Positions 13,356 through 28,727 of a stretch of 64,000 nt of DNA are shown here, one piece after another (positions within the stretch are counted from its first letter, which is position 1; each line of letters starts with the position of its first letter). The position numbers and the translations under genes are program-made. Origin of the DNA: Azospirillum thermophilum (lineage in GTDB: Bacteria > Pseudomonadota > Alphaproteobacteria > Azospirillales > Azospirillaceae); NCBI RefSeq assembly GCF_003130795.1, contig NZ_CP029352.1:485001-549000 (forward strand), given 5' to 3'. The notes beneath the pieces were generated by a model. That model saw only the letters and a program-made list of their open reading frames with translations, did no database searches and was not told the DNA's origin.

Positions 13356-13431
13356 GATCCGGTAGCTCAGTCGGTAGAGCACGTGACTTTTAATCATGTG
13401 GTCGTGGGTTCGAGTCCCACCCGGATCACCA
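13356..13431 (+). tRNA. trnK: tRNA-Lys (anticodon TTT)
   Basis: A complete cloverleaf with encoded CCA. The acceptor GATCCGG (13356-13362) pairs with CCGGATC, then A and CCA (ending 13431). The D-arm is GCTCAGTCGGTAGAGC. The anticodon stem CGTGA/TCATG carries the loop CTTTTAA with TTT at 13389-13391. The T-arm is GTGGGTTCGAGTCCCAC. It is the integration site of the adjacent element, and its last 48 bases are duplicated at 28680-28727. Confidence 0.97.
13384..13431. repeat. attL: attL: tRNA-Lys 3'-end core repeat
   Basis: 48 bases starting TGACTTTTAATCATGTGG and ending CCCGGATCACCA, identical to 28680-28727. It covers the anticodon arm to CCA of the intact tRNA gene, so the target gene stays functional. 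Similarity to attR also extends weakly upstream into the D-arm (TCGGTA). Confidence 0.92.
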
Positions 13432-13512: not shown

Positions 13513-13673
13513 CGCAACGGTCTGCGTTTCTACGGACCAAGGCGATGCTTGCGTTGGTGAAGGCGAGTGCGCCCGAATCACCATCCTCCTCGTCCTGCTG
13601 GGCCTTGAAGGCGGTAACGTGACCTTAAGCGGGCGTGTGGTAGGGCGTGCACAGGCACCCGAAAGGCTCTCCC

Positions 13674-15149
13674 ATGTCCACCCAACTGTCCACGTCACCG
13701 GCATTGGTACCCTCTCGGGACACGCAGGGTGCGATTGTCCCGTACGATCCGTTCGCGGTCGCTCCGAATCCGGAGTTCGCGCTCCCGAGCGTGCTGGAGC
13801 ACGGTTCCGACGTGGAGATGTCCTACCTGACGCGGGATATGCTGATTTACCAGTACGGCAGTGTGGTTTTCACGGAGGGTGAGTTTTGGTCTTTCTCGGC
13901 TACCCACTGGGTTCCGCTGCCGGATGAAATCCTGCGCCAATACGCGCACAAATTCGATGGCAAGTTCTACCTGAAGCCGGGTGGTAAGCGCGACAAGGTG
14001 CTGTTGAACAAGGGGCGTATCGATTCGATTTTGCACGAAGTCGCTATGCTGATGACGGTGCGCAACTTCTTCTCGGATGCGCCAATCGGGATCAACTGCC
14101 TCACAGGCTTTGTCGAGATCGGGCCGAACGGCGGAACAATCTACGAGCACAGCCCGCGACACAAACAGCGGCATCTGATCGAAGCACACTACGACGCCGA
14201 GAAGCCGGCGCTGCCGGGTCCGCTGCTAACGAAGTTGCTGAACGGCTGCTTTGCCAACCTTGAACCCGATGAATCGGCTGCACGGATCCTCATGCTCAGT
14301 CAGATCGGCGGGGCGGCTATTGCTGGCATGGCGACGAAGCTGAAGAAACCGAAGGCGGCTGTGTTGCACGGTCAGACCGCAGAAAACGGCAAGAGCCAGT
14401 TCCTTGAGTGCTTCCGCGCGTTTCTGCCTGCCGATGCCGTGTGCGCCTTCTCCATCCAGCAAATCGGCGACGAGCGCTACATACCGCGCCTGTCGGGCAA
14501 GCTGCTGAACACCTGTGACGAGTTGTCCGCCGCTGCGGTGACTTCAGACACCTTCAAGCGCGTCGTTACGGGTGAAGCGCTGAGCGGGCGGGAGGTGAGG
14601 AGGCTTGCGGTGGAAGTCCGCCCTGTCGCGCAGCATGTCTTCAGCACGAACGTCCTCCCTAGTTTCATCGGCGGCGCAGATCGCGGCGTGCGTCGGCGAC
14701 TGCTGATTGTGCCGTTCGAGCGGTCGATCCCCGACTCGGAGAAGGTGGAGAACATCGGCGCACGGATCGCGGACGAGGAAGCGGATGGGCTTCTGGCTTG
14801 GCTGATCGCAGGAGCGGTGTCACTGGTGCAGGCGGGATTCTTCCATGAGTCCCAGGCATGCAAGCAGGCACTGGATGACTGGCTGTTCAATTCGGACGTT
14901 GTCCTGGCATGGCTGAACGAAGAGTGCGAGGTGACGGGGAAGGCAGAGGACGCAGTTCCGTCCAGTTTGGCGTATTCAGCATTCAGTGTGTGGGCAAAGG
15001 GCGAAGGTTACGATAGGATTCCAAACGCCAACATCTTCAAGCAGCGCATGCTGGCTGCGGACCCTCAGTCGCGCATCGCATGGAAGCCAACAAACAAGGG
15101 GAAGGTCATCACCGGATTGCGGATGGAGAAGACCGGCTTTGCGACGTAA
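13674..15149 (+). CDS. P4/D5-type SF3 helicase (replication protein)
   Basis: About 491 residues. The C-terminal half is a superfamily 3 helicase: Walker A GQTAENGKSQFLECF near residue 240, acidic motif LLNTCDELS near 280 and sensor HVFSTNVLPSF near 325. The preceding D5_N-like part (residues 60-230) fits phage and plasmid helicases. No primase catalytic motif is visible, so it would need a partner primase. The ATG at 13674 follows GAAAGG; an upstream in-frame ATG has no ribosome site. No in-frame TAG occurs and the stop is TAA, unlike the second helicase of this element. Confidence 0.85.
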   Translation: MSTQLSTSPALVPSRDTQGAIVPYDPFAVAPNPEFALPSVLEHGSDVEMSYLTRDMLIYQYGSVVFTEGEFWSFSATHWVPLPDEILRQYAHKFDGKFYLKPGGKRDKVLLNKGRIDSILHEVAMLMTVRNFFSDAPIGINCLTGFVEIGPNGGTIYEHSPRHKQRHLIEAHYDAEKPALPGPLLTKLLNGCFANLEPDESAARILMLSQIGGAAIAGMATKLKKPKAAVLHGQTAENGKSQFLECFRAFLPADAVCAFSIQQIGDERYIPRLSGKLLNTCDELSAAAVTSDTFKRVVTGEALSGREVRRLAVEVRPVAQHVFSTNVLPSFIGGADRGVRRRLLIVPFERSIPDSEKVENIGARIADEEADGLLAWLIAGAVSLVQAGFFHESQACKQALDDWLFNSDVVLAWLNEECEVTGKAEDAVPSSLAYSAFSVWAKGEGYDRIPNANIFKQRMLAADPQSRIAWKPTNKGKVITGLRMEKTGFAT

Positions 15150-15311: not shown

Positions 15312-15713
15312 ATGCGGGATACGTTTTGTGCGCTGCCTCCCGAACGCCACAATGCTCCGGCGCTACAAAAGACCCACCAGCCTGCGCTTCGCGTCTGTGC
15401 CGCGCTGGATGAAGCCCTGTATCGCGGCAAGCGACAGCTGACCGGCATTATAGCACAAACGATCGTCATTGACCCGCCTTACAACTCCGGCCGTGAAGAC
15501 CTGCTTTACGATGATCACTTATCGGAGGACGCCGCTCACCGAGACTCATCTTGGCTCGAATGGCTGCACCGTCGATTGTTGCTTGCACGTGACCTTTTAG
15601 CCGCGGATGGCGCAGTCCTTGCCTGTATCGACGATCAGAGGCGCGCGTTGATGGAACTCCTAATGGAATAGGTGTTTCCGGGAATGCGCGTCGGCAGTTT
15701 TGTTTGGAATCCC
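15312..15713 (+). pseudogene. fragment of an adenine-specific DNA methyltransferase (type III Mod-like)
   Basis: The motif IV segment IVIDPPYNSGREDLLYDDHL lies near 15460-15530, then SSWLEWLHRRLLLARDLLAA and GAVLACIDDQRRALMELLME follow, as in Mod or beta-class N6-adenine methyltransferases. A TAG at 15669-15671 interrupts the frame, but the family sequence continues in the same frame (VFPGMRVGSFVW). It then breaks off at about 15713, where the IS5-family relic begins. The N-terminal part is also missing. It is a dead remnant of a restriction-modification gene, although its TAG fits the amber pattern seen further right. Confidence 0.75.
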
Positions 15714-15715
15714 GC

Positions 15716-16240
15716 AAACCAGCGGGTCCCCATCAGGGTGGCGAAGGCCTTGCTGTCGTGCACCACGCCGCTGGTCAGCGTGAAGGTCACCGGCTTGCTG
15801 AAGCCTTCGCCGCGGATGTTGATCTTGGTCGAGAAGCGGCCGCGAGCGGCCGAGTGCGTCATCATTGATTCCCTTTTTCGCCGCTGGTTTTGCGGACGTC
15901 ATCGGCGCGCTGACGAGCGCGGACGATGGTACTGTCCAAAAAATGCAGGTTCCAATCCACCACACCCGCCGGTCGGTGCGGGCTCGCAGCGCTTCAAGGA
16001 TACGCTGCTAAATCCCGGCGCGCCGCCAGCGGTAGAACCGGCTCGACACGGTCCCGAACGGGCCATACTGCTCCGCCAAGCCGCGCCATGTTGCTCCACT
16101 GCGGGCGATCCAATGCATGCCGTTGATCATCCGCCGGTGAGAGTGGATCGGCCGTCCGGTACGAGGATTCTCTGGAGGAAAGCGCGGCTCCAGCCGCTCC
16201 CATTGTGCATCGGTCAGTTCATAGCGTCCAATTAGGCAAA
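15716..16240 (-). mobile_element. degraded, truncated IS5-family transposase
   Basis: Read on the minus strand from about 16240: RYELTDAQWERLEPRFPPEN, then RMINGMHWIARSGATWRGLA and FYRWRRAGI, followed by a TAG where the family has Trp (TGG to TAG), then QRILEAL. Further frames give DWNLHFLDSTIVRARQRADD and RGRFSTKINIRGEG before the sequence stops at the methyltransferase junction. There are at least two frameshifts as well as the stop, and the C-terminal DDE part is missing, so it is inactive. Confidence 0.75.
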
Positions 16241-16426: not shown

Positions 16427-17245
16427 ATGCCAGCGCATCCGCCCCATTTAAGCTGGCTGACGGAAACCGGAGAAACTCTCGTTTCGGCCGACGGACGGCA
16501 GATCAAAGTGTTGGAGCTGAAGTATCATGAAGACGACGCGGTAATGTCGGCATGGGCAAAGCATTTTAGGCATCATTATTGCGATGATGAAGAGCTTAGG
16601 ATTATGGTTAAAGGATCAAAGAAAACGCGCTCTGAATATCTTCATGCCATTATCTTTCCAGATGAGTCATCTGCGCCCGGCCCGAGCATAAGATCTGGAG
16701 ACTTTGCAGAAATATTGCTAGCAGACTACTTAGAATATGCTCTCGGGTACTGGGTGCCTAGGAACAAATATGCTGAAAAGGGTGCCCGAAATGAGTCAGT
16801 AAAAGGCTCTGATATTATAGGATTCAGAGTAACTGACTGGTATTCAGACAGTAATGATGATGAGCTTTATATCTGTGAGGCGAAAGCTCAACTATCTGGG
16901 AATAAGCCGCACCCCCGCTTGCAGAATGCGATTGATGATTCGGCGAAGGATATGGTTAGGCAGGCCGAGTCTCTGCATGCGATCAAACGTCACCTTTACA
17001 GGAGGTACGGCGAAGAGGAGGCAAGCAAAATTGAGCGCTTTCAGGACGTTGAGGACCGACCCTACCGCCGTTCATATGGAGCCGCTGCGGTATTCAATAA
17101 CTCCATATTCGACAAGGACTCGATTCAACAATCAGACAGCAGCAAGCACCCAGAGAAGGATAGTCTCTATTTAATTACCATCAAAGGCGAAAGTTTGATG
17201 GAGCTAGTGCGCAATTTATACAACAGAGCTGCAAATGAAGCCTAA
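16427..17245 (+). CDS. hamA: HamA, Hachiman defence nuclease (DUF1837)
   Basis: A 272-residue protein of the DUF1837 type, the effector of Hachiman anti-phage defence. The PD-(D/E)xK-like core is visible: GDFAEILLADYLEYALGYWV near residue 92, NESVKGSDIIGF with the acidic residue near 127, and YICEAKAQL (ExK) near 150. In Hachiman, HamA cleaves DNA once released by the helicase HamB. The gene is AT-rich compared with the chromosome, a sign of transfer. Its stop overlaps the hamB start by 11 bp, so the pair is translationally coupled. The assignment depends on recalled family features plus the partner gene. Confidence 0.8.
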   Translation: MPAHPPHLSWLTETGETLVSADGRQIKVLELKYHEDDAVMSAWAKHFRHHYCDDEELRIMVKGSKKTRSEYLHAIIFPDESSAPGPSIRSGDFAEILLADYLEYALGYWVPRNKYAEKGARNESVKGSDIIGFRVTDWYSDSNDDELYICEAKAQLSGNKPHPRLQNAIDDSAKDMVRQAESLHAIKRHLYRRYGEEEASKIERFQDVEDRPYRRSYGAAAVFNNSIFDKDSIQQSDSSKHPEKDSLYLITIKGESLMELVRNLYNRAANEA

Positions 17246-20200
17246 ATCTAAGTCAAATAATCTTTTGGCGAAGACCCGGTCTTTGGCAAAGATGTACGAA
17301 TATGACGTTCCTCAAGAACATCACTTGAAGATTAAAGATGACCCAAGAAACCTGTTCCCATTGTCAATTGGCATGCTCGGTGATATAGCCGCTGCAATTG
17401 CCGACGGTCGCGACGCGGAGGAAGATCTGCGTGCAGCTACAGAGGAGCTTCGTTTCTCTTCATTCTTTTTTGATGCATACCATAGCAGCGGGCTTGATGG
17501 TGCAAACAACTCCTACGTAATTTTGCTGGCTTCTTCGGCATATTATCTTTGTGATCTCCCTGGGAGTTCAAGCGTACTGATTAACCAGTTGCCGCTCGAA
17601 CTCGATCTTAATGCCCAGTGCATCGAGCATCTACTTATTTGGCTCCTAAAAGGAGATTTATCACTCGTAACCACCCTAGGCGGAAGCATATATGAAGAAT
17701 ACTTAGAAGATATTATGTCGTTGTTCCGCCAGATATACGATAGTGCCATAGATGAGCCCGTGTTGGTCACAGCAACAGACTCGCTCAGAGATGCTGTATA
17801 TGCCTATGGGACTCCACGTGAGTTGTTCCTATCCGACCTCGTTGCTGCAGTTGCTATATGGCGCTATAGAAACTCGGCCAGATATTGCCTGCCAGCTTAC
17901 ACTGGCCTGCCTCTTGACGTTTGGATGCCCACCCTCACGAAGCCGTCCTTCGTAAAGGAGTTGTGGCCTGCTCAACGAATCCTGGGAGAGCGAGGCATCT
18001 TCCAAGGTGCTTCAGGTGTTATTCAGATGCCGACCAGCGCAGGGAAAACGCGTGCGACAGAAATAATAATACGTAGTGCGCTTTTATCTGGCAGGACATC
18101 TACCGCTATCATAGTAGCGCCCTTTCGTGCGCTGTGCCACGATATAAAGGCAGATCTCGTCAATGCGTTTCGGGATGAGGCCGTCCATGTCGATGAGCTC
18201 ACAGACGATTTCACAATTGGCGAAGATTTTGACTTGTCGGTTTCAAAACGGGGCATACTCATTGTTACACCCGAGAAGTTAGCCTACATAATTAGACAGG
18301 ACTCCACCTTGCTGAGCTCTGTTGGACTCGTTGTACTTGATGAAGGACACCAACTCGACTGCGTGGGCCGAGGCGCAAACTATGAACTTCTGGCATCTTA
18401 CCTACGTTATAATGTAGATAAGCATGCCCAATTCATTGTGATATCGGCTGTGGTCAGCAATGCGGAGGCTATAAACGAGTGGATAAACAGCGATAAAGGG
18501 GTTGTGGTGCGTGGTATACGGTTACTGCCAACGCAGCGAAGTATAGCTTTCACCAGTTGGACAAAAGGTCTAAGATCGCAGAAATCAGTTTCGGGATCTC
18601 TAGTCTACGTAAATGACAAAGATCCGAACGTTCGTGAATTTTATGTTCCTCGTGTAATTCAGACGCAACAATTGAAGCGGCTTCCGAGAGAGCGAAAGGT
18701 CCCGCCATTATTTCCTCAGTGCGACGATGGAAGTTCAATCGCTGTCTACCTCGGGCTGAAACTATCGAAAGTTGGCGGAGTAGCCATATTTTGCGGAACA
18801 AAGATTGTCGCCAAAGGAGTGTGCGACAGAATCGTGGAAGCTTATTCACGAGATGTCGATTTGGCAACGCCGCTTAACTATTCTAACGAGCATGAGATCA
18901 AGCTTATTGGTGACCTTTATGAAAGAAATATTGGCGCCGATGCAGCCTATACGAAATGCGCTAGGATGGGGGTGCTAACGCATCACGGAAACACACCTCA
19001 CGGTATAAGATTGTCGGTCGAGCATGCGATGAAAATGCGTCATGCTAAGCTAGTCGTGTGCACATCGACCCTGGCTCAAGGAGTTAATCTTCCGATTCGC
19101 TATCTAATTCTATCATCACTACGCCAAGGATCCGAAAAAATCTCTGTCCGAGACTTCCACAATCTCATGGGAAGAGCGGGGAGGTCGGGCATGTATACAG
19201 AAGGAAGTGTGATTTTCACTTCTCCGAATCTCTACGATAGCCGACAATACCGAAATGGAAACTTCAGCAAGAGCTGGACTGAGGTACTGCATCTGCTCAA
19301 TCCAGAAATGGCAGAGCCTTGCATTAGCGAGATACAAAAATTAGTGATGCCTATAGAGGCGAAGGCAACAGAACGTCAATATGACTTGGCCCCTGACGAA
19401 CTGCTAACCATGTACTCTTCGTCATCGGAGGAGGCGCTAGATCGCGTACGACAGATTTGCTTGGAATTGGGAGAAGATGATTCCGACAAAATTGAAGAAC
19501 AGCTTGCAGATAGATTTAAGACTCTTTCGGTGATTGAGAGCTACATGACTGCTCTTGAGGAATTCGATAGCGGATCTGTGGCAAGATTGCTTGAGACGAC
19601 ATTTGCATTTATGCAGAGCAGCTCTGATGAGCGTACCAAGTTAAGTCGCATTTTTACGTGGTTGTCAAGTAGAATAGCGGACACTTTGACCGAAGCAGAA
19701 AAGAGGCGGTCGTATGGGAAGACCCTTTTAGGCATTAGCGACGCTATGCAAGTAGAAGCATGGGTTAACCAGCACAGAGAAAATTTGCCGTTTATAGTAA
19801 GCTACGAGGATATGCTCGTAGCAATATGGCCTCTGATGCAGGACACAATGAAGAACAAGACGTTCATCAAGTGTGTTCCAAAAGCCGACATGGTTGTGTT
19901 TGCATTGGAATGGATGGCTGGCCATACGTTCTCTCAACTGCATGAAAGCATGAATAGGGTTGGCGTAAAAACAAAATGGGGAAAAGGTTTCCGGAAAGTC
20001 ACAATTGACCAAGTTGTTGAGATATTCGAGGGTGGAATCGCGTTTGACGGCATGCTTATAGTAAACGCTGTAGCTGAGTTTTTAGGGGAAGAGGACCCAT
20101 CTTACACCATAGTCAAAGGTCTCCAGAAAAGGATTAAATATGGACTATCTGATGATAGTTCAATCTCATTATATGAGATGGGCTTCTCCGACAGGTTAGT

Positions 20201-20351
20201 TGCGCAAGAATTGTCGGTCGTCACCAGCCCGCACCATCGCCGCCTTGATGTGATTGATGTGCTGCGAGAGAAGAAGGATCAAGCTTCGGAGATACTGCAG
20301 CGATACCCGTCTTATTATTCGGGTGTGCTCGCAACCCTAATCGGAGGGTAA
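17235..20351 (+). CDS. hamB: HamB, Hachiman defence SF2 helicase
   Basis: 1038-residue superfamily 2 helicase. Walker A PTSAGKTRATE lies near residue 265, DEAH-like box VVLDEGHQLD near 368, motif III ISAVVSNAE near 400, and the C-terminal RecA domain has STLAQGVNLPIRYLI and HNLMGRAGRSG near 645. The length, a long N-terminal region before the helicase core and pairing with a DUF1837 gene match HamB, which holds HamA inactive and senses damaged or invading DNA. It overlaps hamA, is AT-rich like it, and ends in TAA. Confidence 0.82.
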   Translation: MKPKSKSNNLLAKTRSLAKMYEYDVPQEHHLKIKDDPRNLFPLSIGMLGDIAAAIADGRDAEEDLRAATEELRFSSFFFDAYHSSGLDGANNSYVILLASSAYYLCDLPGSSSVLINQLPLELDLNAQCIEHLLIWLLKGDLSLVTTLGGSIYEEYLEDIMSLFRQIYDSAIDEPVLVTATDSLRDAVYAYGTPRELFLSDLVAAVAIWRYRNSARYCLPAYTGLPLDVWMPTLTKPSFVKELWPAQRILGERGIFQGASGVIQMPTSAGKTRATEIIIRSALLSGRTSTAIIVAPFRALCHDIKADLVNAFRDEAVHVDELTDDFTIGEDFDLSVSKRGILIVTPEKLAYIIRQDSTLLSSVGLVVLDEGHQLDCVGRGANYELLASYLRYNVDKHAQFIVISAVVSNAEAINEWINSDKGVVVRGIRLLPTQRSIAFTSWTKGLRSQKSVSGSLVYVNDKDPNVREFYVPRVIQTQQLKRLPRERKVPPLFPQCDDGSSIAVYLGLKLSKVGGVAIFCGTKIVAKGVCDRIVEAYSRDVDLATPLNYSNEHEIKLIGDLYERNIGADAAYTKCARMGVLTHHGNTPHGIRLSVEHAMKMRHAKLVVCTSTLAQGVNLPIRYLILSSLRQGSEKISVRDFHNLMGRAGRSGMYTEGSVIFTSPNLYDSRQYRNGNFSKSWTEVLHLLNPEMAEPCISEIQKLVMPIEAKATERQYDLAPDELLTMYSSSSEEALDRVRQICLELGEDDSDKIEEQLADRFKTLSVIESYMTALEEFDSGSVARLLETTFAFMQSSSDERTKLSRIFTWLSSRIADTLTEAEKRRSYGKTLLGISDAMQVEAWVNQHRENLPFIVSYEDMLVAIWPLMQDTMKNKTFIKCVPKADMVVFALEWMAGHTFSQLHESMNRVGVKTKWGKGFRKVTIDQVVEIFEGGIAFDGMLIVNAVAEFLGEEDPSYTIVKGLQKRIKYGLSDDSSISLYEMGFSDRLVAQELSVVTSPHHRRLDVIDVLREKKDQASEILQRYPSYYSGVLATLIGG

Positions 20352-20559: not shown

Positions 20560-21426
20560 ATGGATATCTTCAAATTGCGCCCCGAAGATGACGACTGCAT
20601 CAAGCTGAAAGAAGAGAATTTTCACAGGGCCACCGGGAAGCAGTACCCATACTACCAAGTGAAGTGCGGTAAAACTCAGCATTACGCAACGTGCCCGGCG
20701 TGTGATAATCCGATTCACATCATCAACCTGGACGTTGATGAGAAATATGACTCCCTAGGCCGTAAACTCTCACTCTTCGCGAAGCATGCGAAGTCGGATG
20801 TTCGCGGAATTGCAAAATTTGTACAGGAGGAGTACGATGATTGTCCTCTGGCGAACCCCGAGGCTTTTACGGGGCGAAGCAAGAGGGTTCGTGGAAAGAC
20901 TTCTGCCGAGCTCATCGAGCTCTTGATTGAGTTCTCCGATATCGTTGAAATGGCCATTCGGTCTGCGACTGGGGTTCACTTCACGGAGAAAGCGTTTGAA
21001 AGAATACTCCGTGCGTTCCGGGCGGAGGAAGGGTACTTGTATCGGCACACGACGAAGTTCAATTTGCCTTATGGTGTTCTCTATATGGCAGAGTATCTGA
21101 GTATCGTCGACTCAAGGGTTGCCGATAAGTCGCAAATTAGGAATGCTATAGAGACAAGCAGCAAGTATTTCTATGTGAATCGGGCTGGGAAGGTGTTGCC
21201 TAAGACGGGGTACGGAAGGGCTGACATCGGGTTTTTTCTAACTAAGCATGTCATCCCCTCCGATGCGGAGGCTCCACAGACTATGACGATGGTCGTAGAA
21301 GAGCGCCTTGGCGAGCCGAGACGAGGAGTTGCAGAGATCATTGTAGAAATAGATCAAACCTACTTCAACAATACTGTCGCCAAAAGGAGGCGGTTCCGCA
21401 GAATGGCTGAGGCCGTATTTCGGTAG
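20560..21426 (+). CDS. unrecognised protein beside Hachiman
   Basis: 288 residues, no family recognised. It begins MDIFKLRPEDDDCIKLKEEN. Cys36, Cys45 and Cys48 with His41 (VKCGKTQHYATCPACDNP) may form a zinc ribbon. The middle is helical (TSAELIELLIEFSDIVEMAI), and a beta-rich part with a basic tail (VAKRRRFRRMAEAVF) closes it. Its position directly after hamAB and its lower GC suggest it travels with the defence module. It ends at a TAG; the frame stays open 77 codons past it, but that part does not look like protein, so TAG is probably a true stop here. Confidence 0.65.
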   Translation: MDIFKLRPEDDDCIKLKEENFHRATGKQYPYYQVKCGKTQHYATCPACDNPIHIINLDVDEKYDSLGRKLSLFAKHAKSDVRGIAKFVQEEYDDCPLANPEAFTGRSKRVRGKTSAELIELLIEFSDIVEMAIRSATGVHFTEKAFERILRAFRAEEGYLYRHTTKFNLPYGVLYMAEYLSIVDSRVADKSQIRNAIETSSKYFYVNRAGKVLPKTGYGRADIGFFLTKHVIPSDAEAPQTMTMVVEERLGEPRRGVAEIIVEIDQTYFNNTVAKRRRFRRMAEAVFR

Positions 21427-21848
21427 GAATGGCTGAAATCAGCTCGGGATATTGTCGCGATAGTTCGTAGCAGAGATGTTGCTCGTTTTTTTGCAGGTGG
21501 CGCGAAGAGCGTCGAGCGGATGGACGCGAACAGGGAGGCCGGTCCTGACCTTGCGGATTGGGCGGTTTATCAGATGCGGCTGCGGGCGACGTGGATAGGA
21601 ATGAGGGGATGCCGGATTGGGCTTGTGAACCAGTGGACCGAGGCAGACGGATGGTGCCGTTTGTAGGGTGGTGGACCCGAGCCATCCTGCGGACTGCGCC
21701 AAGCTACATACGTAGCGGTCTGTCTGGCGCACACCACTAGAAAGGCTGCACCGCGCGCCGCCTGCCCCGTGAACAATGAAATGCTTACAAAACGTCAAGA
21801 GGCGGAGCAACAATTGCTCGCTTAATGTATTTCCTCGAGTGACGTTGC
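21427..21848. other. intergenic region between unknown gene and serine recombinase
   Basis: 422 bp. Open frames exist on both strands but none shows recognisable protein features or a ribosome site. It may be remnant DNA from an insertion. Confidence 0.3.
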
Positions 21849-22406
21849 CTATGCCTCCTCCTTGAGCAGACGGAAGACGCTGGCGCGACTGATCCCCAGC
21901 TTCTCAACGATCTGTTTGGGAGTGCGCCCTTCGGCGTGCAGCTTGCGTACCTCGTCGCCCTTCTCCCGTGCGGTGGGCTTGCGGCCGCGATACTTCCCTT
22001 CAGCCTTCGCCTTGGCGATGCCTTCGCGCTGACGTTCAAGCATCACTTCGCGCTCGAATTGGCCGATTGCCCCCAGCATGGTGAGCATGAGCTTGCCGGT
22101 AGGCGTCGAGGTGTCGAGGTTCATAGCCATAATGCGGAGAGACGCGCCCTTGGCTTCGATCCGGTCAACGATTTGGAGGAGGTGGGCGACGGAGCGGGCC
22201 AAGCGGTCCAGCTTCGTTACAATGAGCGTATCGCCGTCGCGCAGATAGTCGAGGGCGCTTTCCAGAGCTTCCCGCCGCGCCACGTCGACGGACGACACTT
22301 GCTCGCTGAACAGCTTCTCCACCCCAGCGGCGGCAAGCTCGCGGTGCTGCGCCTCCAACCCCGCCTGTTGGTCCAATGTGCTCGTACGTGCATAGCCCAG
22401 CAACAT
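21849..22406 (-). CDS. small serine recombinase (resolvase/invertase family)
   Basis: 185 residues with the full catalytic domain: GYARTSTLDQQAGLEAQ with Ser9 as nucleophile, DGDTLIVTKLDRLARSVAHL with conserved Arg residues and GAIGQFEREVMLERQREGI. The C-terminal helix-turn-helix GRTPKQIVEKLGISRASVFR (about residues 158-177) binds DNA. Such enzymes resolve dimers or invert DNA at short sites. Inverted and direct repeats directly upstream (22426-22491) are a plausible res region. The gene is GC-richer than hamAB and may belong to a separate insertion. The stop is TAG. Confidence 0.9.
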   Translation of the reverse strand: MLLGYARTSTLDQQAGLEAQHRELAAAGVEKLFSEQVSSVDVARREALESALDYLRDGDTLIVTKLDRLARSVAHLLQIVDRIEAKGASLRIMAMNLDTSTPTGKLMLTMLGAIGQFEREVMLERQREGIAKAKAEGKYRGRKPTAREKGDEVRKLHAEGRTPKQIVEKLGISRASVFRLLKEEA

Positions 22407-23242: not shown

Positions 23243-26053
23243 TTAGAACTTCCTGCGACCGGGGAAGTTGACGACCTTTGCAGGTCGCTCCTCCTCTTCC
23301 GTATCGTCCTCATCAATCTTCAGCCCGAAGTGGTGTGCCGCGACGCGCGTCGCAGTGTCACTCTTCAGCCCGATACCGATGGCACACACCTTGCCGGTCC
23401 CGAGGTAGAAGCCGTCGTTGTTGGTGTTCCACTTCGCCTTCCCGACCTTGATGCCGCGCTCCTCCAGCATTCCTTCGATGAGGCTTCGGGTCATCTGGTT
23501 CACGCCCTCGTCGCGCGCCCATTCGTTGTACTCGTCCACCAACGCGGCGATGGAGGCGATCATCTTCGGATGTGTGACGCACCGGTCACCCAGGAACTGG
23601 CCGAAACGATCCTCGCTGCGGATGTACTCCTCCGTCCGCGCCTACACCAGCGCCGGTACTGGAACCCCGTCTACCTGACCAAAGAACTTGGCTGCGGCCT
23701 TGATGGCCTTGAACAGGATGCCGGGGTACTCCTTCACCAGCTTCAGCTTCAACATCACGTCGGGCTTCGCCACCGCTGGCCCTGTCGGGACGATGCACAG
23801 GCGGCGTGCAACGGCGAAAGACATCTTCTGCACGGCGGGGAGCTTGTTCATCACGACCCAGATTTTCGCCTGCGACATGAAGCTGAAGTTGTCCCCGCGC
23901 ATGAACCGCGCTGAGATCACGTCGTCGCCGGTCAGGCGTTTAAACCGATCTTCGTTCAGGAAGCCCCCATCCGGCCATTCTGAAGTGATGGCGAGACGGG
24001 CACCGACGAACTGTGCGATCTCCGTAGGGTGCCGGTCGTTCTTCTGCTTCTCCAAAACGCTCGCGTCGAAGGAGATGGCGTAGGAGCCGAACAGGCCAAA
24101 CAGCGTGTTGAGGAAGGTGCTCTTGCCGTTCTGCCCCGATCCGGTGAGCCAGAAGCTCTTTTGAAGCCGCTGGTCACCAGACAGGGTGTAGCCGAGGAGT
24201 TGCCAGAGGTATTCTTCGGTCTCCGCGTCGTTGTTCGCCATGTTCCGAAGCAGGCTGTCGAACATCGGCGTCGGAATATCGACCACGCCTGCGGCGGTTT
24301 GCTTTGTGCAGAGGTACTTCGCACACTCCTCTGCATCGCTCGCCACCAGTTCACCGGATTCCAGGCTGTAGATGCCGGAAGGCGTGGCGATGACCATCGG
24401 GTCAGCGTCCAAGTCCCTCATGCCGATCATTAGCCCAGGCTTTCGCGCCAGCATGTCGGATACGGCTCGAACCGTGTTGTTGGCTCCGAGCTGCTTGTAA
24501 ATCCGCGCGGCAATCGCGTCGGCTTTCTCGTCGTCCATTCCGTCGGTGATCGCTGCAACGATCCCCCCCGCAAGGACCTACAAGCCGTTGGTGACATCGT
24601 TCCGAAGGTGGTCAGAGGCGCCGAATTCCCAAATCAGCCGATTCGCGTCGAACCGCATCCACTCTCTCCGATCAGTGTTGAAGCGGTAGAGCTTCGCGAC
24701 GTCCTTCAGCAGAGCGTCGGCAAGCGCCGCGTCGGACAGGGCGTTCTGATTGCTGGCGTGCTTGAACACGGTGCCGTCGCCCAGGTTGGCCGATTCTCTC
24801 GGCTGGACGTTCGTCCGCTCGCCCAAGAACAACTCTCCATGCGTCGGTCGGCCCTCTGCGCCCCCGACCTCGATCTGAAACTCGTCGGCGCATAGGTCTT
24901 CGGTGGTCAGCCAGTCCCGCTTGATCATCTCTGCCAGGAAGTCGAGCCGATCCCGTCCGGTGCAGGCGTTGTGCTGACACCCGATGACGAATCCGCCCTT
25001 ATGGGACTCGCCGGCGTTAATGACGAAGCTTCCACCAAAGGCCGAAGGGTCGGTGTGCTCGTCTTGGAACGGACATTCGATGTGGTGAACGTCACCACGG
25101 TCCTTTTCGGGATGCAGCACGTCAGGGCTGCGGGCTTCGAGAGCGTCTGCGATCAGGAACGTGTCCGCGTATCCCGTTGCCGCCCACCGTTTCAGCTTGC
25201 GCATCAGGTCGTCGGCGCTGCCCTCCACCTTGGCGCCCATGGCGCTGGCAGCGGCGAGGAAGGGATTGCTCGTCGCGCTGGCGTCCGTCTTCACGCTCGG
25301 CAGGGCGAAGATGTCCACGGCCTTGCCCTCATGCACCACCGCTTCGTAGGGCGCTCCGTCCGAGTGGCGCGGGGTGAAGTAGAGCCTGGATACGTCGGTG
25401 CAGGCTTCGTCCACCTGGATGCCCAACCAAGCCGCGAACGCCAGATACGACCGCCTCCATGCGGCGAGGGCTTCAGCCTGCGTCGGGTAGTCCGCGACAC
25501 TCCACGGCTGCGCCAGGATGAACACCAAACGGTTCTTTGGCATCGGCGCGTGCTTGATCCGCGTGACGATGCCGCTGCCGGTCTGCTTCTCCTCGATCAC
25601 TTCGGCGGTTTCGGCAATCGCCGGAATGAACCGCTTCTTGGTGGTCAGGTAGTCACGAACGTCAGCTTCGGGGCTCTCGCGCAGGAAGCGGTTCAGGTCG
25701 TCGCGGCTGACCTCCGTCACCTCGCGCCCGCTGCTGTGAGTGGTGTAGCGTATGCAGAACACCCCGCGTTCCCTAACGATGCGGTCCAGTTCCTTGCTCG
25801 CCATGCCGTTGTCCACGTCGATGCCGACAATGAACAGGCGCTCCATGGCCTTGGCGGATCGCACGCCGTCCACGCAGGAACCCTGAAGGAAGCATAGGCC
25901 GTCCTTGTGCCCGACTTTGTGGGTGGTCAGTCCCTCGACCAGCGCAGGCAGGTCGAAGGAGTGATTCTTCCACTTCCCGTTTGGGGTATCGCTCTTAGAG
26001 CCGTAAGCAAGAGTTGCGGTCCAATCGTCCGCAATTTTTCGTAGATACTACAT
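23243..26053 (-). CDS. primase-helicase with three in-frame TAG codons (amber-recoded)
   Basis: Replicative primase-SF3 helicase of 936 codons if TAG is read as an amino acid. The only internal stops are TAG at codon 2 (26048-26050), 492 (24578-24580) and 804 (23642-23644); the true stop is TAA. The frame never shifts. N-terminal AEP-type primase: FIVGIDVDNG (DxD) and DVSRLYFTPRHSDGAPYE. A zinc-binding segment follows (CPFQDEHTDPS ... GCQHNACTGRDR). The helicase has Walker A LTGSGQNGKSTFLN, ARLAITSEW and IWVVMNKLPAV. After the third TAG the family C-terminus continues (ARTEEYIRSEDRFGQFLG). The ATG at 26053 has a TTTGGAG ribosome site and no other start is available before the conserved region. 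In the host, TAG is a stop, so expression would need suppression; Gln is the best guess. Confidence 0.85.
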
Positions 26054-26116
26054 TGTCGTTTTCTCCAAATCAGCGTTGTTTCAAAAATGAGGAATCGGCT
26101 ATCAGATGATTACCGA

Positions 26117-26569
26117 TCAACGATACACGTAATCATTAGGCCGCGCGTTCAGATACCCGCGCGGCTCGACGTTCAACTTTTCCATGATTGGCTGGAACTG
26201 TTGGCGGCAACGGAACGTGCCGAAGCCCTCGTTTTCTGTGCCCTGAATCCATCGGCCTTCGGCGCGTTCCAGCCAACCCGAAGCGATCACCTAGCCGACC
26301 TCGAACCCAGCACCCATGCAGGGCAGCCACTGTTCAGCGTTCTTCGTCGGGCAGACCGCGACCCGAAAATGCAATTCATCCGCGCCAAGGCACTGAACGA
26401 ACACTTTCGTCGGGAACCCTCCGACGCGGCACTCGTACATGCGGTAGTCGCCGCGTGACAGGCCGTCCGCGCCGACCTCCAGGGAAATCGCGCCCTGCTG
26501 TAAACCCTCGTTGATCGTGGCGACGAGCACGTTCCGCCACGCCTTGTATCTCTAAATCTGGTGTATCAT
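26117..26569 (-). CDS. unknown 150-codon gene with two in-frame TAG codons
   Basis: The ATG at 26567-26569 follows TGGAG by eight bases. TAG occurs at codon 6 (26552-26554) and codon 93 (26291-26293); the frame then runs on to a TGA at 26117-26119. Segments: RYKAWRNVLVATINEGLQQG, EVGADGLSRGDYRMYECRVG, VAVCPTKNAEQWLPCMGAGF, then after the second TAG VIASGWLERAEGRWIQGTEN and CRQQFQPIMEKLNVEP. No family was recognised. It lies 63 bp upstream of the primase-helicase in the same direction, probably one operon. It contains ordinary CAG Gln and TGG Trp codons, so those codons are not simply replaced. Confidence 0.75.
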
Positions 26570-26807
26570 GACTTGATCTCCACAATTGGTTTCTTTCCTG
26601 AGTAATCTGAAGTAAAAACGCCAAACCGGAAAAGAGGTGGGCACGCGTTCGTAAGGCGAATGCCCACCCTGTCAGTGCTGCCGATTTGGTGAGAAAACCT
26701 CTTTCGAGATTGACAACAGGATAGCAGTAAATTATTTCAAATACAATACTTGCGTAGTAAAAAATTTTGTGTTAGACTAGTGCAAATTATGAAAAAGGAG
26801 AATGCAC
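26570..26807. promoter_or_regulatory. divergent control region with nested inverted repeats
   Basis: 238 bp between the replication genes (leftward) and the HTH gene (rightward). Outer arms AAAGAGGT (26631-26638) and ACCTCTTT (26697-26704) enclose GGTGGGCA (26636-26643) with TGCCCACC (26661-26668), and a TTCG/CGAA pair lies inside. A rightward promoter TTGCGT (26750-26755), 17 bases, TAGACT (26773-26778) precedes the AAAGGAG ribosome site of the HTH gene. It is a plausible switch region for the amber genes. Confidence 0.5.
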
Positions 26808-26984
26808 ATGAACCCAACTGATTTCGTTAGCCTCGTAGAGCTAGCTGCTCTGCTTGGTGTCTCAAAATAGTGTTTGTACTATCGCGCTTCCCGTGCTGGC
26901 GCCCCTGCGTCGATTAAGATCAATCGCCGCCGTTACTTTCTCCGCTAGGAAGCCCTGAACAATCTGGTCCTCCGCCTGCCATGA
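26808..26984 (+). CDS. AlpA/MerR-like helix-turn-helix regulator with two in-frame TAG codons
   Basis: 58 codons plus TGA. AAAGGAG lies seven bases before the ATG. LVELAALLGVSK, TAG at 26868-26870 (codon 21), CLYYRASRAGAPASIKINRR, RYFLR, TAG at 26946-26948 (codon 47), then EALNNLVLRLP. This is the standard single-HTH excisionase/AlpA layout: the recognition-helix turn where homologues have Gln or similar, and the RRYF-R wing. Both TAGs fall inside the fold and the frame is otherwise perfect. AlpA-type proteins control excision and early gene expression in integrative elements. It overlaps the next gene by ATGA. Confidence 0.82.
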
Positions 26985-27184
26985 TGACCGACCGCACCGA
27001 AACCTTGCTGGCGGCAGCCACGGTGCTTCTGTTCGATGCAGCGTTCGCCATGCAAGACGCCCTTGACGCATAGCGGGCAGAGCGCGCGGCGAAGGCCAAG
27101 CGCCGAAAGTCTAAGAAGCGCCGTAACTGCGATCCCCGCGCCGCCGTCCTCGAATGGGGGCGGAAGCATAGGCCGAGATACTGA
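26981..27184 (+). CDS. small basic protein with one in-frame TAG codon
   Basis: 67 codons. It starts ATGATG with the first ATG overlapping the TGA of the HTH gene (ATGA), a sign of coupled translation. TAG is at codon 31 (27071-27073) between AMQDALDA and RAERAAKAKRRKSKKRRNC. The end is WGRKHRPRY followed by TGA. A hydrophobic first half and a Lys/Arg-rich second half suggest nucleic-acid or membrane contact, but no family was recognised. A terminator follows. Confidence 0.65.
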
Positions 27185-27311: not shown

Positions 27312-28472
27312 TCAGGAAAGGCTTTTGAGAACCCGCTTTCCCATCAACCCAGCAACAGCAGCGCGCTGGTCATCGTTTACGACGTGAGCGTAGTGCTTCA
27401 GCAGCGTTTGCGGGGTGCTGTGACCGGTCAAACTCTGAACCGTCTTGATTGATGCCCCCTGAGACAGCAGCCGCGTGGCAAAGGTGTGGCGAAGGTCGTA
27501 AAGGTTCGCGTCACCAAGATCAGCGACCTTCCGCAACGTGGCCCAGCGGTTCTTGATGGTGGTGAGGTGTCCGACACGACCGGGATGAGGGGAGGGGAAC
27601 ACCCATTCGTTTGACCGCCCTTTCTCCTTAAGCGACCGCAGCAGTTCCACTGCTTCGGGCGCGAGGGGGACGGTGTGCGCCTTTTTCGTCTTCATGTTGG
27701 CGGCTGGCTTGCGCCACACCGCATCGTTAAGGTCGAATTGTTCCCAGCGCGCTTTGAACGCCTCGTTTGGTCGCGCGCCGGTCAGCATCAGGAAGGAAAC
27801 ACAATAGTCAGTTGTCGTGTCGGTCAGTGCGTCGATAAGTCGGTCAAGCTGCGCGTCCGTCAGGTATGCTTCCCGCGGTTGTTCCTTCTGACGGCCGATG
27901 TCACTGATCCACTGCGCATCGGTCAGCATCTCCCATTTACGCGCTTGCGTCAGCATGAGGGAGATCCACGCGAGGACGCGATTGTGCGTCGCCGGTTGGC
28001 TCACCAATGGGCGCAGCAATCGTTCCACGTCGAGACGCCGAACCTTGTGAACTTCAATGTGCCCGATGGCAGGATGCACATACTTGGTCTGGTAGCGTCG
28101 GCAGGCATCCACGTACGACTTTGATCGGCCTTGGCTCTCCAGATACGCGAGGGTGTCTGACGCGACATGCTCAATAGTTGTCTTATTGATTGTCTGGTCC
28201 TTGATCACCTTGAGGTGGGGAGGGTTGCCACGCGAAACGTCTGTGCGGATGGACTGTCCCCAGAGGCGCGCGCCGAGAAGCTTCTCGTCGCCGGTCAGCG
28301 TGACCATGTGCTCAACGCCTTCCCACCGATACCGCATCACCCACGTTTTGAGACCGTTCGACCTCACCCGCAGCGTGAGACCTCGCACGGTCGTGTCTTG
28401 GTAGGACGTGCTGTCCTTCTCCGGCGGCTTGACGGTGTCAATGAAGCGCTGGGTCAGATTGACGCGAGCCAT
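27312..28472 (-). CDS. int: tyrosine recombinase integrase
   Basis: About 386 residues, P4-like integrase. The N-terminal DUF4102-like arm-binding part (TVRGLTLRVRSNGLKTWVMR) comes first, then a core-binding domain. Catalytic residues follow: Arg in LTGARPNEAF, Lys in KTKKAHTVPL, HxxR in YDLRHTFATRL, His in LTGHSTPQTL and the nucleophile Tyr in KHYAHV. The start is the second of two in-frame ATGs because it lies nine bases from AGGGAG, while the first is only three away (28478). It sits next to attR and reads into the element. It contains no TAG and ends in TGA, so it works in a normal-code host. Confidence 0.93.
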   Translation of the reverse strand: MARVNLTQRFIDTVKPPEKDSTSYQDTTVRGLTLRVRSNGLKTWVMRYRWEGVEHMVTLTGDEKLLGARLWGQSIRTDVSRGNPPHLKVIKDQTINKTTIEHVASDTLAYLESQGRSKSYVDACRRYQTKYVHPAIGHIEVHKVRRLDVERLLRPLVSQPATHNRVLAWISLMLTQARKWEMLTDAQWISDIGRQKEQPREAYLTDAQLDRLIDALTDTTTDYCVSFLMLTGARPNEAFKARWEQFDLNDAVWRKPAANMKTKKAHTVPLAPEAVELLRSLKEKGRSNEWVFPSPHPGRVGHLTTIKNRWATLRKVADLGDANLYDLRHTFATRLLSQGASIKTVQSLTGHSTPQTLLKHYAHVVNDDQRAAVAGLMGKRVLKSLS

Positions 28473-28500
28473 AGTCATTTTCTCCCTGGCGAGGCATCTC

Positions 28501-28679: not shown

Positions 28680-28727
28680 TGACTTTTAATCATGTGGTCG
28701 TGGGTTCGAGTCCCACCCGGATCACCA
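28680..28727. repeat. attR: attR: duplicated 3' part of tRNA-Lys
   Basis: 48 bases identical to 13384-13431. The upstream bases (ATCGGTAAGAACA) resemble the tRNA D-arm region but no acceptor 5' strand is present, so this copy is not a working tRNA gene. Confidence 0.92.

Follow-up and report, generated by a model that had tools for sequence, protein, structure and literature searches.

How can a gene stay under selection when a stop codon lies inside it, and what would read such a codon as sense? These questions are raised by four adjacent genes in a chromosomal island of Azospirillum thermophilum, located within a stretch of 64,000 nucleotides (contig NZ_CP029352.1, positions 485,001 to 549,000; the whole stretch is called the window here). 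The genes encode a primase-helicase, a product of 150 codons, an AlpA-like regulator and a small basic protein, and they contain eight in-frame stop codons, all of which are TAG. A first reading made from the letters alone (the sequence-only reading) had assigned the eight TAGs to particular codons and proposed that UAG is read as an amino acid, most likely glutamine (Gln), rather than being a mark of random decay. The eight TAGs are indeed at those codons, the primase gene ends in TAA and the other three in TGA, and the ATGA overlap reported between the last two genes is present. The comparisons described below argue for coding rather than decay and support Gln as the residue in this family of elements; they also make it somewhat probable that the decoding tRNA is supplied from outside. 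The genes and their TAGs are as follows:

23243..26053, minus strand: primase-helicase gene, 936 codons, three in-frame TAGs, TAA end; matches PHROG DNA primase families
26048..26050, minus strand: primase TAG at codon 2, opposite Glu of the relative P0002 (74% identical)
24578..24580, minus strand: primase TAG at codon 492
23642..23644, minus strand: primase TAG at codon 804, within a stretch common to P4-type primases
26117..26569, minus strand: 150-codon gene, family unassigned; TAG at codon 6 (26552-26554) and codon 93 (26291-26293); TGA end
26808..26984, plus strand: AlpA-like helix-turn-helix gene; TAG at codon 21 (26868-26870) and codon 47 (26946-26948); TGA end
26981..27184, plus strand: small basic protein gene; TAG at codon 31 (27071-27073); TGA end; ATGA overlap with the AlpA-like gene

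The primase is the most informative of the four. Its middle piece contains the DUF5906 and D5_N domains, and five distant P4-type primases align on both flanks of codons 492 and 804 without terminating at either, which bears out the earlier claim that conserved sequence lies before and after these TAGs and speaks against the idea that the proteins normally end there. Three viral homologues (IMG/VR) are uninterrupted and extend 1010 to 1024 codons from the matched start, arguing that the natural length of the primase goes past the TAGs. Behind the TAG at codon 2 the next listed start is codon 61, and a restart there would drop the stretch from DWTATLAYGS onward that is common to the relatives. 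P0002 begins in register with the window gene, as judged by eye. This closest relative of the primase terminates where the window gene and its counterpart in Azospirillum sp. B21 have Trp. Pieces of the 150-codon gene gave no Pfam family above cut-off and no PHROG match. The regulator resembles a gene of Azospirillum sp. B21 that also has a TAG at the codon-21 site; we take the window gene to be AlpA-like from this likeness and from general features of the family rather than from a profile match.

Related elements were found in two further genomes, Azospirillum sp. B21 (G041, loci L006 and L014) and Roseomonas genomospecies 6 ATCC 49961 (G011, loci L007 and L015), both of which the classification tool places in the same genus as the window's genome. 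The primase search of 145 genomes gave four matches, including the window's own genome and one weak match. The G041 and G011 primases are 65.5% and 53.9% identical to the window primase (first piece); they also run across TAGs, at other positions, and end in TGA. Among 45 genomes of the genus only the three known carriers appeared, and among 385 genomes of the class only the window's genome and one other, the latter without stops. The middle piece of the window primase had no match among viral contigs.

Tape-measure genes adjoin the G041 and G011 primases, one with 7 TAGs and the other with 8 plus a further one behind a frameshift; the frameshift, in the G011 gene (L007), lies close to the contig end. 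A tape-measure piece compared with the 145 genomes matched eight of them, G011 and G041 included. One of these matches is a third TAG-bearing copy, 96% identical over the query piece and with 9 TAGs, which lies in another island of the genome to which the window belongs. Another genome (G014) has a gene that is 43% identical with 0 TAG, and the four further, weaker genome matches also lack stops. The G014 locus (L037, G014:C11:15001-35000) contains resolvase-like and integrase-like frames with the TAG-free tape-measure gene and lies near a tRNA-Leu(GAG) gene. When tape-measure pieces were compared with phages, one search gave nothing and another gave 26 distant tape-measure matches. The window island itself has no visible tape-measure gene, and no clear attachment-site repeat was found around the sister islands. 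A stretch of about 18 kb in G041 (L079, G041:C15:70116-88366) has tRNA-Gln(CTG) at one end and, at the other, a repeat of the 3' half of that tRNA; it was considered as a further recoded element and set aside, its long frames not being TAG-rich in appearance.

The case against decay can be put most fairly with the genes whose extent is defined by homologues, namely the three primases and three tape-measure genes. These contain 30 TAG, 0 TGA, 0 TAA and one frameshift across three genomes: the primases contribute 3 (window), 1 and 2, and the tape-measure genes 7, 9 and 8, the last being cut by the contig end and its ninth TAG, behind the frameshift, being left out. The sequence-only reading had put the chance of eight TAGs out of eight at about 1 in 6500. 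That figure is circular in part, because TAA or TGA had been chosen as the end of each frame. In all, four elements from three genomes have primase, tape-measure or regulator genes in which TAG is the only interrupting stop. A codon-bias scan meant to pick out stops flanked by coding sequence had too little power to help (1 TAG in the island and scattered single matches elsewhere). Comparing the elements in full length in all six frames did not keep true frames apart from shadow frames, and the counts do not draw on it.

Selection was measured as the ratio of nonsynonymous to synonymous substitution rates (dN/dS, Nei-Gojobori). Five tape-measure segments covering codons 17-740 gave values of 0.055 to 0.313; the last TAG of the own-genome copy lies beyond codon 740. 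For the G041 and G011 primases the ratio is 0.285 in the part that precedes the G011 TAG site and 0.306 past the TAG of G041. Alignments of coding sequence thus show that selection at the protein level continues behind the TAGs. TAG positions move between homologues while this selection persists, as the sequence-only reading expected of sense codons, and its argument against random decay stands.

Which amino acid is inserted? The three-way tape-measure alignment has TAG in 18 columns. Two were dropped, one with TAG in all three genes and one behind the G011 frameshift. In 11 of the 16 kept, Gln stands opposite TAG in another element (CAG in 10, CAA in one), and the other five are opposite E, S, E, S and D. 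When metagenomic proteins were added, Gln appeared in 2 of 3 at the last column, giving 12 of 16 columns with Gln. In the G014 gene, which is more distant, three of the 16 columns are Gln and the rest are other residues. Against a background of 121 Gln in 3200 compared residues, the binomial value for 12 of 16 is 1e-14, with columns that are not fully independent. On this comparative evidence, the reading of UAG as Gln in this element family is well supported.

The window's own TAGs give a less uniform picture. The residues opposite primase codon 492 in the five distant homologues are K, D, T, G and R, and those opposite codon 804 are R, Q, L, R and T; in the AlpA-like gene, codon 21 stands opposite TAG or A and codon 47 opposite D or K (by eye). 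Because these residues are mixed, with one Gln in total, we infer Gln for the eight window TAGs from the relatives. The earlier proposal of Gln is therefore borne out by the sister elements and only indirectly for the block on which it was made. A change from CAG to TAG is a single transition; the eight window TAGs may have arisen in this way, as the sequence-only reading supposed.

A tRNA with a CUA anticodon would be the obvious decoder. ARAGORN found none in the elements. In the host, none was found by pattern search or among 54 tRNAs, an incomplete list drawn from 55 Rfam-scan matches (including a tRNA remnant at the island's right end) and 55 ARAGORN genes (including one of G041). Pattern candidates with a purine after the anticodon in G041 (7) and G011 (4) included only two tRNA-Arg genes and no CTA anticodon, and a second CUA-tRNA pattern gave 0 matches. 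The host itself uses UAG as a stop, since 8 of 30 open reading frames (ORFs) in the window outside the island (at least 200 aa, high G+C at third codon positions) end in TAG, with 20 ending in TGA and 2 in TAA. Because no decoder was found in element or host, the tRNA would have to arrive in trans.

The layout of the island bears on how this might work. The host genome is 6.78 Mb in nine contigs, and the island is about 15.3 kb; an intact tRNA-Lys(TTT) gene bounds it on one side and a 48-bp repeat of that gene's 3' end on the other. From the right, the order is integrase, the four TAG genes, resolvase, the Hachiman defence genes HamA and HamB, and another primase of the D5 type. Features other than the TAG genes are:

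13356-13431: intact tRNA-Lys(TTT)
13384..13431, plus strand: attL, 48 bp forming the 3' part of tRNA-Lys(TTT), repeated at the right end
16427..17245, plus strand: HamA, Hachiman defence system, 0 TAG
17235..20351, plus strand: HamB helicase, Hachiman system, 33 Gln codons, 0 TAG
21849..22406, minus strand: resolvase, no inner TAG; its own terminator is TAG
27312..28478, minus strand: tyrosine integrase, 388 aa, 17 Gln codons, 0 TAG, TGA end
28680..28727, plus strand: attR, 48-bp repeat of the tRNA-Lys 3' end; weak tRNA score, 37.3 bits

The TAG terminator of the resolvase argues that the cargo of the island keeps the host's code. A 288-aa cargo gene without an assigned family (20560-21782) may also end in TAG; 79 further open codons lead to a second TAG. 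The second D5/DUF5906 primase-helicase (13647-15149) adjoins tRNA-Lys and lacks the N-terminal part, and broken frames at 15312-16235 resemble, by a motif, a DNA methyltransferase. The island may combine two elements.

The reading that we favor, with confidence just past the midpoint, is that of an integrated and likely satellite-type parasite of phages, represented by its replication and control genes, in which UAG likely means Gln and the decoding tRNA comes in trans, most likely from a recoded helper phage. Helper and satellite would share UAG as Gln, with the satellite borrowing the tRNA. In the resting cell UAG would be a stop, so that the primase, the AlpA-like regulator and the late genes would be off while the integrase and defence genes would be active; a helper phage that brings tRNA-Gln(CUA) would unlock the element. 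A lock of this kind suits the finding that the first TAG lies within 60 codons of the start in 19 of 21 TAG-bearing genes (combined p = 0.004). A more specific proposal, which we hold only tentatively and nearer to doubt than to belief, is that the code itself acts as the lock between parasite and helper: the replication, control and tail genes would be written in the helper's code and the integrase and defence genes, active at all times, in the host's, with the arrival of the helper's tRNA-Gln(CUA) as the on-signal.

Phages of the kind invoked do exist. When viral contigs were searched for the arm of the host tRNA-Gln combined with a CUA anticodon, 28 came out, 17 of which carry a CUA tRNA by ARAGORN (labelled Pyl by the program, from the anticodon alone). 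Five IMG/VR contigs (L145, L153, L154, L158 and L165; GC 0.56) have a CUA tRNA that is 69% identical to the host tRNA-Gln(CTG). Their TAG-bearing genes include a portal gene, recognized by its matches, and a terminase-like gene, recognized by eye, and of 27 distinct cases, counted with shadow frames, 22 have Gln opposite TAG. Similar portals occur in phages of Pelagibacter, Bradyrhizobium and Pseudomonas, among others. A further contig, L166, has a CUA tRNA with TAG-bearing portal and terminase-like genes (by eye); GC in the L145-L166 set is 0.56 to 0.62. When the recoded portal was compared with the 385 class genomes, matches in 12 were found, with no TAG.

Several results weigh against the helper reading or blunt its support. 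The searches by primase, tape measure, terminase, portal and tRNA brought out no recoded helper. At the limit used, no protein of the five-contig group is similar to those of the elements, so the group is evidence that such phages exist but not that it is the helper; no relative of the tape-measure pieces was confirmed among viral contigs. A terminase-family search of the three genomes gave eight matches, none with TAG, from a family that is unspecific, since it also matched in 11 of 14 control genomes. The contrast between gene classes is partly built in: the 21 TAG-bearing genes of the four elements have 48 TAG and 221 CAG+CAA, and all 20 ends that are known are TAA or TGA, against 0 TAG and 123 CAG+CAA in nine others (the three integrases, HamA, HamB, a topoisomerase-like gene and further ones; one more gene is left out of the count). 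Yet the former were selected because they have TAGs, and TAA or TGA was set as their end, which makes the Fisher value descriptive only. Leaving out the window genes and one shared site weakens the early-TAG result to p = 0.027. Gln is opposite the window's own eight TAGs only once, in one of five distant homologues. The host tRNA survey is incomplete, tRNA-Ile(GAT) and tRNA-Ala(TGC) having failed to turn up, and a missing CUA tRNA proves little in any case, because about half of the phages that use genetic code 15 are without a detected one (present in 375 of 715, according to PMC11210395). Finally, in-frame stops with conserved sequence are said, in PMC7918605, to be widespread in bacterial genes.

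The main rival takes the elements for remnants of temperate phages in which UAG once meant Gln and which carried their own suppressor tRNA; the tRNA has been lost, the remnants are silent, and the conservation reflects past selection. Such a history would explain why only the tape-measure gene and small neighbours of a virion are seen in the sister elements, and why no capsid, portal or terminase family appeared in 20 PHROG scans of pieces (two from one gene), which gave tape measure, integrase, primase, topoisomerase and unknown families for a subset of the ORFs. The truncated second primase and broken frames of the window island, as well as the frameshifted L007 tape-measure gene, also have the look of remnants. 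However, that frameshift is the single one among the length-fixed genes and lies near a contig end; genes for an integrase, an AlpA-like regulator, a primase or a tape measure turn up repeatedly, in distinct islands of the three genomes; and the standard-code G014 island has its related, uninterrupted tape-measure gene beside an integrase-like frame. We give relics an appreciable but low probability.

Alternatively, the host itself might read UAG weakly as Gln, by near-cognate tRNA-Gln(CUG) or a suppressor that escaped detection, giving weak expression with no helper. Two tRNA-Gln(CTG) genes are present, the gaps in the tRNA survey leave room for a suppressor, and many bacterial genes have been suggested to undergo read-through at in-frame stops (PMC7918605). 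However, both tRNA-Gln types have ordinary 5-bp anticodon stems, host genes in the window do use TAG as a terminator, and 7 to 9 UAGs per tape-measure gene would leave almost no full product. Host read-through thus seems improbable.

That UAG stands for another residue, such as Trp, Glu or pyrrolysine, is very improbable: 4 of the 16 tape-measure columns are opposite only E, S, H, T or A, and the residues at the window's own TAGs are mixed, but Gln occupies the other 12 columns. The pyrrolysine system was examined and rejected, the single PylS-family match in the host being below the curated cut-off, with such matches also appearing in 13 of 14 controls. An origin as ordinary pseudogenes, of which in-frame stops are the usual mark, or by sequencing errors, is scarcely credible, even though the one tape-measure frameshift might be ascribed to it, given the TAG-only tally of the length-fixed genes in three genomes, dN/dS well under 1 behind the TAGs and the alternation of TAG with CAG.

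If the decoding tRNA does come from outside, the genetic code itself would be a switch that senses another virus. The recoding occurs in chromosomal islands of a culturable genus and is split inside one island, with integrase and defence genes on one side and replication and control genes on the other. Such genes are shortened in public protein sets, where the entries for both relatives (P0003 and P0005) stop at a TAG. The named assemblies, Azospirillum sp. B21 and ATCC 49961, make the idea testable in culture.

Known systems share parts of this picture. In phages using code 15, such as crAss-like phages, UAG is read as Gln according to metaproteomics (PMC9523058). These phages likewise have in-frame TAG in phage genes, TAA/TGA stops, alternation of TAG with Gln codons and a standard-code host; here, by contrast, the elements are small and integrated, the host is a high-GC alphaproteobacterium, and no CUA tRNA was found. 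Among the reports covered, recoding is mostly from gut phages, and one survey spans jumbo phages of seven habitats (PMC13037316). The five-contig group is alike in reading UAG as Gln and in having a CUA tRNA near the host tRNA-Gln(CTG), but consists of phages with portal and terminase-like genes and a CUA tRNA of their own. The conserved in-frame stops of bacteria (PMC7918605) also combine an in-frame stop with coding selection, whereas here one stop codon only is involved, in many genes per element and opposite Gln. No report on Azospirillum with a suppressor tRNA, and none on a recoded phage satellite or a satellite with an alternative genetic code, was found among the papers listed in the literature covered, with subscription papers mostly outside its scope.

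There is also a likeness to P4-like satellites and phage-inducible chromosomal islands (PMC11364771), which are small islands with a tyrosine integrase, an AlpA-like regulator, a P4-type primase and defence cargo. The window has the tRNA island with its 48-bp repeat and integrase, and the P4-type primase; it differs in that the control and replication genes are amber-coded and no helper is known. In Vibrio cholerae, PLE satellites form chimeric tails with a tape-measure protein that they encode themselves, and predicted tape-measure genes are reported from unrelated satellites as well (both from PMC12987554). Like PLE, the sister elements have a tape-measure gene and no other virion family in the scanned pieces; unlike PLE, they live in an unrelated host and the tape measure is amber-coded, and the island of the window shows none. 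What is new is the code, in elements that otherwise look satellite-like.

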